From: Rhodothermales bacterium
Lineage (GTDB): Bacteria; Bacteroidota; Rhodothermia; Rhodothermales; Bin80
DNA: 64,000 bases
Assembly: GCA_951812585.1 (NCBI GenBank)
Contig: OX638318.1
Location: 958,819 to 1,022,818 of the forward strand
Direction of reading: 5' to 3'
Below, piece after piece: positions 44,288 through 50,624 of this stretch (position 1 is its first letter; every line of letters begins with the position of its first letter). Under the pieces are notes generated by a model that searched no databases, was not told the origin of the DNA, and saw nothing but the letters and a program-made list of their open reading frames with translations. Made by a program: the position numbers and the translations under genes.

Positions 44288-44854
44288 ATGAAGAAAATCT
44301 TACGCATACTAGGCATTCTCCTTGGCGGAGGCATCGTGGCCCTTCTGCTGTTGGGCCTTTTCGTCAGACAGGTTTCCTACACGACCACGGTCGATGTCAA
44401 AGCACCGGTAGCCGCGTCATGGGCCACCTTTGCCGATGGTGATCGCCTGGGAGAGTGGATGAAGGACCTTTCGGAAGTAGAGCTTCTGGAAGGTCCGCAA
44501 GACAGTGTGGGCAGCCGCTACCGCCTTCATTTTGATACGGGCGAAACGCTGGACGAACACGTTACAGCAATGGTGCCGAATGAGCTTTATGCATTCGATC
44601 TGGAAACGTCCATCTTTACAGGCTCTGCTCGGGTAACCTTTGTTGAACACAACAACGGCACCCGCATCACGCAGACCACCACTGTGCGCGGCGCAGCATT
44701 CCACTGGCGTGCATTGCTGCCGGTGATCAAACCCCTTATGCAGAATTCACAGATGCAGGTACTGGATGCGCTCGCCGCTGTGATCGAGAAGGCACCCTCC
44801 GCAGTGCCTGTGGTGGAAAGCGACACACTTCAGGCATCGACCGGCGAGCCCTGA
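44288..44854 (+). CDS. Membrane-anchored START-like (SRPBCC) protein
   Basis: 188 residues. One N-terminal TM helix (about 5-27: LRILGILLGGGIVALLLLGLF), then an SRPBCC domain (TTVDVKAPVAASWATFADGDRLGEWMKD, then the sheet and LLPVIKPLMQNSQMQVLDALAAVIE as the long C-terminal helix), and a polar tail. The topology suggests a domain held at the membrane. Function unknown. It precedes the LarA-type gene by 42 bp on the same strand. Confidence 0.83.
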   Translation: MKKILRILGILLGGGIVALLLLGLFVRQVSYTTTVDVKAPVAASWATFADGDRLGEWMKDLSEVELLEGPQDSVGSRYRLHFDTGETLDEHVTAMVPNELYAFDLETSIFTGSARVTFVEHNNGTRITQTTTVRGAAFHWRALLPVIKPLMQNSQMQVLDALAAVIEKAPSAVPVVESDTLQASTGEP

Positions 44855-44896
44855 CCGGCTGCAGCGCCTTTCAGACACAATGCCAGACGGAGAACG

Positions 44897-46177
44897 ATGA
44901 CTCGCAGTGATTCGAGCATTCTCCTGCAGTATGGACAGGCGGGACTGTCGCTTGCCACGCGCGGGCTCAACGCGACCATTCTGCGCCCGCAGCCAATGCC
45001 CGGCCTTGCGGATGAACGTGCTGCGTTCAGGCAGGCCGTGCAGAATCCGTACGGTACGCCGCCACTGCGCACGCTTGTCCGGACCGGCGAGACGGTCGCC
45101 ATCGCCATCCCCGACATTACGCGCGCGCTGCCGACCCGCCGACTGCTTCCGTGGGTGCTTGACGAGCTGTCCCATATACCCCGAGGTGATATTCGGATCG
45201 TTGTTGGCACAGGCACCCACCGCACGAATACACGAGCGGAGCTCTGCAGCATGGTCGGTCCGACGGTTGTGGACACCATCCCCGTCATCTGCCACAATGC
45301 GCGGGACCGGTCCACCATGACCCGTGTCGGTCGCAGCCGGTACGGGTATGACGTATGGTTCAACACAGAGTACGTACGCGCGGACCGCCGCATCCTTATG
45401 GGGTTCATAGAGCCGCATTTCATGGCGGGTTTTTCGGGCGGATACAAGGCGGTCTTTCCTGGTCTTGCCGATATGGACGCCATCCTTCAGTATCACGGCT
45501 ACGACAACATTGCTCATCCCCGCAGCACCTGGGGCCTGTTGGCGAACAACCCTACACAGGACCATGTGCGCGCGGGCGGCTCGCTGGTACCTGTCGACTT
45601 CCTGATCAACGTCACGCTCAACGATGAGCATGCAATCACGCGCTTTTTCTGCGGCGATGTGATCCAGGCCCACGAAGTGGGCTGCGCCTACTCGAGAGCG
45701 TGCGCCATGGCCTATGTGGAGAAGCCCTTCCCAATCGTGGTGACAACCAACAGCGGCTACCCCTTGGACCTGAACCTGTACCAGAGCGTCAAGGGCATGT
45801 GCGCTGCGGCGGCTATCACGGCAAAAGGTGGCCTGATCATCACGGCGGCGCGTTGCAACAATGGTTTTCCTGATCACGGAGCATTCAAGGATCAGCTCAT
45901 TCGCTTCCGATCGCCAGCCGAGGGCCGGCGTGCCATTCGCCATCCCGAATTCTCTGAGCCCGACCAGTGGCAGACCCAGAAGCTGTTTCAGATTCTGAAG
46001 ACGTGCCGCATCCAGCTCTACAGCGAACTGAGCCCGCATGATGTGCGGCGTGTCCACCTGGATCCGATCGCCTGCGTTCGAGAGGCCATTGACGCTGAAC
46101 TGCGCCGCATCGGCGACCCCGAGGCCCCCGTAGCGATCATGCCTGAGGGACCGCTGACCATTCCCTACCTAGCGTAG
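44897..46177 (+). CDS. LarA-type nickel-pincer (NPN) hydroxyacid racemase/epimerase
   Basis: 426 residues of the LarA (DUF2088) family. The residues numbered 108, 174, 184 and 200 in lactate racemase are all present at the same numbers: His108 in GTGTHRT, His174 in EPHFMAGFSGG, Lys184 in GGYKAVFPG and His200 in QYHGYDNIAHP. Lys184 anchors the NPN cofactor. The family racemises lactate, other 2-hydroxyacids or sugar acids. The cofactor-synthesis genes larB/larC/larE are not in the window. The next gene, 25 bp on, is a GPH sugar-cation symporter, so a sugar-acid substrate is likely. Confidence 0.9.
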   Translation: MTRSDSSILLQYGQAGLSLATRGLNATILRPQPMPGLADERAAFRQAVQNPYGTPPLRTLVRTGETVAIAIPDITRALPTRRLLPWVLDELSHIPRGDIRIVVGTGTHRTNTRAELCSMVGPTVVDTIPVICHNARDRSTMTRVGRSRYGYDVWFNTEYVRADRRILMGFIEPHFMAGFSGGYKAVFPGLADMDAILQYHGYDNIAHPRSTWGLLANNPTQDHVRAGGSLVPVDFLINVTLNDEHAITRFFCGDVIQAHEVGCAYSRACAMAYVEKPFPIVVTTNSGYPLDLNLYQSVKGMCAAAAITAKGGLIITAARCNNGFPDHGAFKDQLIRFRSPAEGRRAIRHPEFSEPDQWQTQKLFQILKTCRIQLYSELSPHDVRRVHLDPIACVREAIDAELRRIGDPEAPVAIMPEGPLTIPYLA

Positions 46178-46202
46178 GCAGGCCGCACATCACGGTGCTG
46201 GC

Positions 46203-47588
46203 ATGACAAATCAGGTTCGGCTTCACGAAAAGATTTCCTACAGTCTTGGAGACATGGCTTCGTCCATGTTCTGGAAGCTCTTTTCGCTGTTCGCGCTGTA
46301 TTTCTATACCGATGTCGTAGGGCTTGGCGCAGCAGTAGTGGGCACGCTGCTGCTCACCACTCGCATATGGGACTCGGCCAACGATCCCATCATGGGTATG
46401 ATCTGCGACCGCACGCGGTCTCGCTGGGGCAAGTTTCGGCCATACCTGCTTTTCGTCGCGGTTCCGTTCGCCATTATCGGCATGCTGACCTTCACTACGC
46501 CAGACTTTGGTCCTGCGGGCAAGCTCATCTATGCCTATGTGACCTACGGCGTCATGATGATGATATACACGGCCATCAATGTGCCGTATGCTGCGCTTCT
46601 GGGTGTCATGACCCCCAGTCCGCAGGAGCGGACTTCTCTGGCTTCGTGGCGATTCATCGGCGCATACGCAGGAGGCATCCTGGTGACGGCTACAGCCAAC
46701 GATTTGATCCGGATCTTCGGCCGGGGTGGCAATGAGGCTGCTGGATACCAGATGACGGTTGCGCTCTACGCTGTGGTTGCCTGCCTGCTGTTTCTGCTGA
46801 CTTTTGCCGGCACCAGAGAGCGCTTGCAGCCGCCCCGTATCCAGGTACCGCGCCTGCGAGACGATCTTAGGGATCTGTTGACGAATGGGCCGTGGCTGCT
46901 CATGCTCGGCGCTTGTGCGTCCTTGCTGCTGTGCAACACCATGCGGGACGCGGCGATTCTCTTCTACTTCAAATACTACGTTGGCGATGTTTCGATGTGG
47001 CTCTTCGGCGATGTCTCCATGCCCAGGCTTTCGGCAGCCTTCATGACGACGCTGCTGGTCGCCAACCTGATCGGCGTAATCTTCGCGTCGCCGGTGGCGC
47101 GGGCTATCGGCAAGAAGCATGCACTGATCTTCTCTGGCGTTGTCACGGCCCTCCTGTGCGTCGTATTCTTCTTTGTGCCAGCCTCGCAGGTACTGCTGAT
47201 CTTTGCTATCAACGTGCTGATCGGCATTGCAGGCGGCATCGTGTTTCCACTCATCTGGTCGATGTATGCAGATGTTGCAGACTACTCGGAGTGGCGATCC
47301 GGTCGCCGGGCCACGGGACTTGTGTTTTCGTCGTCGTCCATGTCGCAGAAGATTGGATGGTCTTTAGGCGGCGCGCTGGCCGGATGGATTCTGGCCTATT
47401 TTGGATTTGAGGCCAATGTCGCTCAGACTGACACGGCGCTTCTGGGTATTCGTCTCCTAATCAGCGTCTTTGCCGCCGTAGGTGCGCTCGCTTCCGTCGT
47501 CTTCATTTACTTCTACCCACTGGACAAGCGCCGCATGGCGACGATTGGCGCCGAGCTTCAGGAAGCGCGCGCCGCCGCCAGGCGGTAG
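46203..47588 (+). CDS. GPH-family sugar:cation symporter (MelB-like)
   Basis: 461 residues, 12 predicted TM segments. The first helix region KISYSLGDMASSMFWKLFSLFALYFYTDVVG, and WDSANDPIMGMICDRTRSRWGKFRPYLL in the loop after TM2, are the GPH signature (DxxxD-G-x-DRT-x-SRWGKFRPY). Family members bring in melibiose, glucuronides, xylosides or related sugars with Na+ or H+. It follows the LarA-type gene with 25 bp, so they form a transporter-enzyme pair. A 12-bp repeat GCGGTAGGCTGC lies over its stop codon (47582 and 47604). Confidence 0.93.
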   Translation: MTNQVRLHEKISYSLGDMASSMFWKLFSLFALYFYTDVVGLGAAVVGTLLLTTRIWDSANDPIMGMICDRTRSRWGKFRPYLLFVAVPFAIIGMLTFTTPDFGPAGKLIYAYVTYGVMMMIYTAINVPYAALLGVMTPSPQERTSLASWRFIGAYAGGILVTATANDLIRIFGRGGNEAAGYQMTVALYAVVACLLFLLTFAGTRERLQPPRIQVPRLRDDLRDLLTNGPWLLMLGACASLLLCNTMRDAAILFYFKYYVGDVSMWLFGDVSMPRLSAAFMTTLLVANLIGVIFASPVARAIGKKHALIFSGVVTALLCVVFFFVPASQVLLIFAINVLIGIAGGIVFPLIWSMYADVADYSEWRSGRRATGLVFSSSSMSQKIGWSLGGALAGWILAYFGFEANVAQTDTALLGIRLLISVFAAVGALASVVFIYFYPLDKRRMATIGAELQEARAAARR

Positions 47589-47759: not shown

Positions 47760-48467
47760 CTACTTGGCGAGTGCTGCACGGAGGTGCTCCAGCATGAAGG
47801 CCGCCACGAACCGATTACCGGCCTCGTTGAGGTGCACGCCGTCGGTTGTCAGGATGCCCTCGTAAGCCTTGTCCGCGTTGTGCTCCACCAGGTATGCTTC
47901 AAAGGCTTGCTGCAAGTCGCACAGCGTGGCTCCCGTTTCGCGCGCGACGCTGCGGCTGATCGCAGCATATTCCATCAGTCGCCTGTTGACCGGTGCGGCA
48001 CTGGTGGGGTCTTCCCCGATCACGCTGGGCGTGCACAACAGCACTGTGGCACCGCGCCCCTGAATCACTTGGACCAAATCGGTCAATCCGACGCGAAAGG
48101 TGTCCGGGTGCGTGCCGGTTACATGGTCGAACTCGAAGTGATGCCATACATCGTTGATGCCGATGTATATCACGACATGGGTCGGGCTATGCGACAGAAC
48201 ATCGCGGTGCAGCCTTTCCTGCAAGTCTGGGACCTTGTGCCCACTGATCCCCGCACCGATGACTTCAATGGACCTGCCGGCAAAGACTTCAGCCAGGCCA
48301 CTGTCCACCTGCGCCACATAGCCACCCGGCAAGGCTCCTGCTTCCGTGATGGAATCGCCAAAAAACACGACGCGCACGGGGGATTCGGATGGCGCAGCGT
48401 CCCGCTGTGCACAGGCACTGTGCATCACAGCGCCCACGATCAGAAAACCGATAGACTTGGCAAACAT
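47760..48467 (-). CDS. SGNH/GDSL-type lipoprotein esterase
   Basis: 235 residues from ATG 48467, which gives a good signal (FAKSIGFLIVGAVMHSAC with a lipobox-like Cys); ATG 48497 would add ten residues. SGNH blocks: FFGDSITEAG (Ser), the block II Gly, VIYIGINDVWHH (Asn) and TTDGVHLNEAG (Asp/His). Family members remove acyl/acetyl groups from sugars and lipids. It lies opposite in direction to its neighbours, in a catabolic region with a sialidase, so de-O-acetylation of glycans is a reasonable guess. Confidence 0.88.
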   Translation of the reverse strand: MFAKSIGFLIVGAVMHSACAQRDAAPSESPVRVVFFGDSITEAGALPGGYVAQVDSGLAEVFAGRSIEVIGAGISGHKVPDLQERLHRDVLSHSPTHVVIYIGINDVWHHFEFDHVTGTHPDTFRVGLTDLVQVIQGRGATVLLCTPSVIGEDPTSAAPVNRRLMEYAAISRSVARETGATLCDLQQAFEAYLVEHNADKAYEGILTTDGVHLNEAGNRFVAAFMLEHLRAALAK

Positions 48468-48554
48468 GGATTTCGTACCATAACCCCAACGTTTCACCTA
48501 AGATTATCGATCGGGTGTTTACAACGCAACTGTTTCACGGCCATTGACTGCGCG

Positions 48555-49505: not shown

Positions 49506-50624
49506 ATGACGCTCTGGATACGGCTCTTCGTACTGGCGCTGCCGCTCGTTGCGGCCAGTAGCGCGCAGGTGCCCAACTACATCTATCAGAAGGGCGACGA
49601 CGGGTACGCCTGCTTCCGCATCCCGGCCATCGTGGTTGCACCGGACCACTCAGTGCTCGCCTTTGCCGAAGGTCGAAGGCACAGCTGTTCCGATACAGGC
49701 GATATCGACCTGGTTGTGAAGCGCTCCCTGGACAACGGCAGGACCTGGGGCGCTTTGCAGATCGTCTGGAATGAAGGAGAGAATACCGCTGGCAATCCGG
49801 CTCCGGTCGTCGACGCCGCCACCGGCACCCTGTTTCTGCTTGCCACCTGGAACCTGGGTACGGATCGCGAACCTGATATCATCAACCAGACGTCTACTGA
49901 CACGCGCCGCGTTTATGTGCTGGCGTCCCGGGACAGCGGACAAACCTGGTCGGAGCCCCGAGAGATCACCACCGACGTGAAGAAGGCGTCCTGGACCTGG
50001 TATGCCACCGGACCCGGGTCCGGCATGCAGGTTCAGCGCGGCCCGTTCGCCGGGCGACTCATGGTGGCGTGCGATCACATCGAAGCGGAGACGAAGCATT
50101 ACTATTCTCACGTAATCTATTCCGACGATCACGGCCAGACCTGGCAGCTGGGCGGCAGCACGCCGCAACACTTTGTCAATGAATCAGAGGTTGCCGAGCT
50201 GGAAGATGGCGGCCTCCTGTTGAACATGCGCAACTATGCGCAAGGGGAGCGGCACCGCAAGATTGCGAGAAGCTATGATGGTGGCCTGACTTGGACTGAT
50301 CTCCAGTCCGATTCCACGCTCATCGAACCCATCTGCCAGGCCAGCCTGCAGCGCTACCAGTTCGCAGACGAAGGGCAGAGCATCTTGCTCTTCTCCAACC
50401 CTGCCAGCAAACATCGGCGCGAAAACATGACGCTGCGCGCAAGCTTCGATGATGGGCGAACCTGGCCCAGAAAGCTTCTGGTCCATAGCCCCATGGCAGC
50501 GTATTCCGACCTGGTGCGCCTGGCAGACGACTATATCGGCCTGCTCTACGAAGCGGGTCCTGACCAGCAGAGCACCTATCAAGGGATCGCCTTTCGCCGC
50601 ATTGCGCTTGCGGAACTGCAATAG
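49506..50624 (+). CDS. Exo-alpha-sialidase (GH33-like, BNR repeats)
   Basis: 372 residues. Signal peptide about 1-20, then the FRIP motif CFRIPAIVV (first catalytic Arg), the acid/base Asp in GRRHSCSDTGDIDLV, and Asp-box repeats SLDNGRTW, SRDSGQTW, SDDHGQTW, SYDGGLTW and SFDDGRTW around a six-bladed propeller. NESEVAEL supplies the Glu and AAYSDLV the nucleophile Tyr. Releases terminal sialic acid or similar sugars from glycans outside the cytoplasm. No sialic acid lyase (nanA) or kinase is seen in the window, so released sugar use is not explained here. Confidence 0.93.
   Translation: MTLWIRLFVLALPLVAASSAQVPNYIYQKGDDGYACFRIPAIVVAPDHSVLAFAEGRRHSCSDTGDIDLVVKRSLDNGRTWGALQIVWNEGENTAGNPAPVVDAATGTLFLLATWNLGTDREPDIINQTSTDTRRVYVLASRDSGQTWSEPREITTDVKKASWTWYATGPGSGMQVQRGPFAGRLMVACDHIEAETKHYYSHVIYSDDHGQTWQLGGSTPQHFVNESEVAELEDGGLLLNMRNYAQGERHRKIARSYDGGLTWTDLQSDSTLIEPICQASLQRYQFADEGQSILLFSNPASKHRRENMTLRASFDDGRTWPRKLLVHSPMAAYSDLVRLADDYIGLLYEAGPDQQSTYQGIAFRRIALAELQ

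Follow-up and report, generated by a model that had tools for sequence, protein, structure and literature searches.

LarA-type racemase homologues with intact cofactor residues in a Rhodothermales lineage lacking detectable larB, larC and larE

In this study, we analysed a 64,000-nucleotide stretch of a Rhodothermales genome (contig OX638318.1 of assembly GCA_951812585.1; hereafter the window), in which a gene for a LarA-type NPN racemase homologue of 426 aa lies on the forward strand at positions 44897–46177. On the same strand, it is preceded at a distance of 42 bp by a gene for an SRPBCC/START-like (Polyketide_cyc2) protein of 188 aa (44288–44854) and followed after 25 bp by a gene for a GPH-family sugar:cation symporter (MFS_2) of 461 aa (46203–47588). 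Beyond the symporter lies a reverse-strand gene for a GDSL lipase/acylhydrolase (47760–48497), and a gene near the locus, at 49506–50624, encodes a sialidase-like BNR-repeat protein whose N-terminus resembles a signal peptide. An open reading frame of 436 aa antisense to larA (44747–46057) was taken as a shadow of larA. Scanning for promoters and terminators as operon signals around larA gave results at chance level. An earlier note on this DNA had reported a LarA-type protein with four catalytic residues at the same numbers as in LarA, and a GPH symporter 25 bp downstream. Both observations are confirmed, the former by Pfam domains and an alignment to a characterised LarA, the latter by the open reading frame coordinates and the TIGR00792 score.

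The 426-aa protein contains the Pfam domains Lar_N (193.9 bits) and LarA_C (93.3 bits), which place it in the LarA superfamily. Its top NCBIfam model is Ni_dep_LarA (NF033504), with a score of 425.6 bits, which does not reach the 460-bit cut-off of this lactate racemase equivalog. In the alignment to Lactobacillus plantarum LarA (5huq), His108, His174, Lys184 and His200 are identically numbered (codons at 45218–45220, 45416–45418, 45446–45448 and 45494–45496), and the arginine for the NPN phosphate, Arg75 in L. plantarum, corresponds to Arg76. This set of Arg, His, His, Lys and His is kept in all 30 aligned rows of the window's type of LarA (hereafter the first type), which represent 19 of 19 distinct genomes, 11 rows being second copies of the same contig. 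The alignment excludes three fetched loci (L101, L102 and L105) that match neither of the two LarA-type profiles, and the LarA homologue of genome G228 (L073), which is without equivalents of His174 and Lys184, was counted under no type. The dN/dS values of unsaturated pairs were 0.08–0.17 for the first type (ten pairs listed, mostly repeats of the same contigs; pairs including the window itself have a synonymous distance above 1.5) and 0.10–0.27 for the second type described below (eight pairs listed). Both LarA types are maintained under purifying selection.

The symporter scored 389.6 bits against TIGR00792 (cut-off 231.35), and its nearest named subfamily is YagG (396 bits, under the cut-off of 610 for that subfamily). 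In E. coli, YagG is associated with the use of xylonate. We compared 17 larA loci of the window's clade (the window, L005–L017, L022, L026 and L128), some of them on contigs that end close to larA, so that absences of neighbours are partly uninformative. The SRPBCC/START-like gene precedes larA, in the same orientation, in 13 of the 17 loci including the window (12 of 16 relatives), at no more than 75 bp from larA in seven of the 17, and is a more conserved neighbour of larA than the symporter. Its product in the window has a hydrophobic N-terminus, and no other upstream neighbour of larA is as conserved. In 11 of 16 relatives, larA is followed at a distance of up to about 105 bp by a GDSL gene that converges on it, and in most relatives the GDSL gene directly follows larA, at the place occupied in the window by the symporter. 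Because the symporter adjoins larA in only three of the 17 loci (the window, L005 and L017), it is a local, optional partner of larA and not a general one; the pairing described in the earlier note is real in the window but does not extend to a general partnership.

Published work on LarA homologues allows the pocket to be read. In PMC11770544, the four pocket positions are given as F, F, W, E/Q for LAR and E, V, A, H for GntE. The window's LarA carries Phe175, Met176, Trp358 and Gln359 at these positions, which differs from the GntE set and matches the SAR (LarAH2 group) pattern, a Leu/Phe-Met loop with Trp and Gln. Trp358 and Gln359 are present in 19 of 19 aligned first-type genomes and Met176 in 17 of 19, both genomes of family f6 having Phe. 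The closest solved structure is that of Isosphaera pallida LarA (LarAH2/SAR; PDB 9eia, 9eid and 9eif; E 4e-68), which shares with the window's LarA the Met, Trp and Gln pocket residues and all NPN residues, while the first loop position is Leu in place of Phe. PMC11851776 gives the pocket of this enzyme as Leu174, Met175, Trp356 and Gln357, its kcat/KM as highest on L-lactate and 2-hydroxybutyrate with L-glycerate next, and its NPN adduct as about +450 Da. Compared with L. plantarum LarA, the window's protein has Met176 for Phe176 and Gln359 for Thr359. Given that the pocket follows the published short-chain 2-hydroxyacid (SAR) pattern and not that of GntE, small 2-hydroxyacids (lactate, 2-hydroxybutyrate, glycerate) are likelier substrates than sugar acids. 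The earlier note had proposed a phylogeny against characterised LarA homologues as a check; in a tree with only three characterised chains, the window's clade lies outside both the LAR and the SAR representatives and does not join the SAR clade (LarAH2 group), and the root is uncertain, so that the specificity stands as a prediction. The proposal of the earlier note that the enzyme epimerises a sugar acid rather than lactate is thus not borne out by the pocket, and we rejected a sugar-acid reading of this protein on the pocket residues together with the poor conservation of the symporter.

The genome encodes a second LarA homologue, of 420 aa, outside the window (C1:2137609–2138871; L002 and L106). 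It has all five NPN residues, which are intact in all 16 second-type homologues from the order, 15 of them from the window's family, and a PHEV loop, whose fit to GntE extends to the first two pocket letters (E, V). It matches the GntE/hexonate-type model NF052594 weakly (143.8 bits against a cut-off of 500) and the putative uronate isomerase structure 4nar with an E value of 2e-58; the window's LarA is of a different type from the GntE/hexonate-type homologues (NF052594; LarAH18–20). In relatives, the second larA is the first gene of a series that also encodes a 3-hydroxyisobutyrate-type dehydrogenase, a seven-bladed lactonase and, in several of them, an aldo/keto reductase along with a Gfo/Idh/MocA oxidoreductase. 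In the window's own genome, the second gene lies near sulfatases and is grouped with genes for a dehydrogenase and a seven-bladed lactonase. The sugar-acid enzyme of this genome looks, from loop and gene run, to be the second LarA homologue and not the one in the window.

The earlier note had found larB, larC and larE missing from the window, which is upheld, and had concluded that they must be elsewhere. The window's genome is a single contig of 3.2 Mb rated 95.7% complete, and a search of it with profile models and curated cut-offs for LarB, LarC and LarE returned nothing over cut-off. LarC (PF01969) had no match at all, LarE (TIGR00268) had two sub-cut-off matches (37 and 25 bits) and LarB one (40 bits); these LarE-like and LarB-like matches were set aside because the genes encode NAD synthase, GMP synthase and PurE. 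In L. plantarum, NPN is synthesised by the organism's LarB, LarE and LarC, none of which was found here, and the window's LarA cannot be classed as an NPN-dependent enzyme with its own biosynthesis, defined by larB, larC and larE in the same genome. The earlier note had named a genome devoid of NPN synthesis genes as one result that would refute its reading, and by that standard its simple picture fails. The same holds across the order: among 78 genomes at least 90% complete, 18 have a LarA homologue, LarC was found in none of the 78, and neither LarE nor LarB exceeded its cut-off in any of the 18, the LarE-like and LarB-like matches of the 17 other than the window's being judged by score alone (19–45 bits). 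Nevertheless, the window's GTDB family has 15 genomes that are at least 90% complete, and each of them keeps at least two LarA homologues, of both types and with the five NPN residues intact. As far as profile searches reach, this lineage cannot make NPN by the known route.

The LarC and LarB searches readily detect their targets elsewhere in the phylum. In a sample of 392 genomes, 45 have a LarA homologue. Of these, 34 lie outside the order, and 17 of the 34 have LarC (389–487 bits), with LarB exceeding its cut-off in exactly those 17. Genome G409, from the same class as the order, has a larC–larE–larB operon, and the same clusters are present in the same order in G416, also of this class. 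Outside the order, first- and second-type LarA are accompanied by LarB and LarC in 11 of 11 sampled genomes (three of the first type and eight of the second, with G088 counted under both the first and a third type), although, because of kinship, independent events are far fewer than such genome counts and the absence throughout the order may go back to one or a few events. In addition, a genome named Opitutaceae (G425, locus L011) contains a larA with 62% identity as well as a larE–larB–larC set (L132) of the same composition, which supports NPN use by the window's enzyme clade. The joint presence of this larA and the lar set in G425 also raises the possibility of transfer between phyla.

The window's protein is most likely a working NPN-dependent 2-hydroxyacid racemase, its activity and substrate being inferred, as is the uptake of the cofactor. 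We suggest that the LarA homologues are racemases that need NPN, that the lineage no longer synthesises it, and that the cofactor, or a late precursor of it, comes from an external supply, an explanation to which we give about even chances. According to this model, the Rhodothermales lineage would have lost its own larB, larE and larC, and the cell would take up NPN or a late precursor from other organisms. Lys184 would then receive the cofactor, His200 would bind the nickel, and inversion at C2 would follow the known mechanism of proton-coupled hydride transfer, carried out by two histidines and the cofactor. The model is proposed because the cofactor residues and pocket are intact, larB, larC and larE are absent by profile search and selection is purifying, and because larB and larC accompany these enzyme types in other parts of the phylum. 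Against it, no NPN transporter or salvage enzyme has been identified, and no description of NPN uptake was found in the literature searched.

Alternatively, the lineage might make NPN itself, with unrelated, non-orthologous enzymes replacing LarB, LarE and LarC. Such replacement would account for two LarA types that retain every NPN residue under purifying selection without larBCE, and the absence is not unique to this lineage: a third, hexonate-type LarA (NF052594; loci L071 and L080–L100, assigned from scans of two members, L088 and L071) occurs in 22 genomes of the phylum sample, of which seven have LarB and LarC and 15 do not. NCBI names the NF052594 homologues nickel-dependent. However, all three known steps are absent together, which fits the loss of a pathway better than three replacements, and neither larA has a candidate gene next to it; we regard replacement as unlikely.

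It is also conceivable that the enzymes no longer use NPN and have adopted another pyridine cofactor or some other role. The lack of larBCE would then be expected, and both the score of the window's LarA under the equivalog cut-off (425.6 against 460) and the position of its clade outside the characterised LAR and SAR representatives point in this direction. If NPN had been abandoned, however, drift would be expected at the residues that serve it, and the cofactor tether Lys184, the nickel ligand His200 and the phosphate-binding Arg76 show no change in any of the 19 genomes. This makes abandonment improbable.

The possibility that larBCE are present but were missed, because of a patchy distribution in the family, a replicon absent from the assembly or the small percentage of the genome that was not captured, has some basis, given the 95.7% completeness rating and two LarC matches among all 114 order genomes of any completeness. 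One, at 291 bits, is in G458, from another family of the order. The other is in G427, the sole further member of the window's family (16 searched in all; 89% complete, 8% contaminated), which we treated as the same MAG as G426 (L017) since the two agree in size and in the position of the LarC match. This match is a LarC C-terminus, intact over 54 codons, at the start of an 8.4-kb contig (L131; G426:C16, 8429 bases). The tetranucleotide profile of this contig correlates with the MAG mean at 0.79, compared with 0.87–0.93 for nine of ten other contigs of the MAG, 0.74 for the remaining one and 0.42–0.68 for stretches of other family genomes, in a test that excludes contigs with less than 5 kb of readable bases (nine of 18 fetched, six of these N throughout). 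Contamination is possible. If the contig is native, the loss of larC is not family-wide and took place within the family, the window's genus still being without larC. On the other hand, the window's assembly is one contig and that of G012 four, and all 15 family genomes at least 90% complete are negative for a protein that is easily detected elsewhere, at 389–487 bits. A missed set of genes is improbable. Least probable is the explanation of the earlier note, in which the GPH symporter supplies a sugar-acid epimerase with its substrate and the NPN genes lie at another place in the genome, an explanation which the 25-bp spacing and the YagG-like symporter favour but the SAR-type pocket, the symporter's presence in three of 17 loci, the absence of larBCE and the sugar-acid-like loop and gene run of the genome's other LarA homologue contradict; as a whole, the interpretation in that note is partly supported.

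Returning to an outside supply of NPN, a bolder form, which we put forward only tentatively, is that the whole family depends on it, having two nickel-pincer enzymes, a lost synthesis and an as yet undiscovered uptake system for NPN or a precursor. Several of the MAG names are ones that we take to denote marine-sponge metagenomes; a literature search on habitat from the MAG names gave nothing relevant. Likewise, no report of NPN salvage or auxotrophy, or of LarA without larBCE, was found in the literature, subscription papers including the 2014 larA survey being outside the search, and it is uncertain whether LarA without larBCE is new in print.

NPN is usually regarded as made where it is used. 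About 15% of genomes, many of them cyanobacterial, have larBCE without larA according to PMC11796402, and in these, too, NPN supply and use are uncoupled. Set beside such makers without LarA, the window's lineage would be the mirror image, users without makers. If an outside supply is true, NPN would be a shared, vitamin-like good, and organisms with larBCE only would be possible donors. Confirmation of two intact LarA homologues without maker genes would imply either movement of NPN between cells or a second route of synthesis, and either would be new nickel biochemistry.
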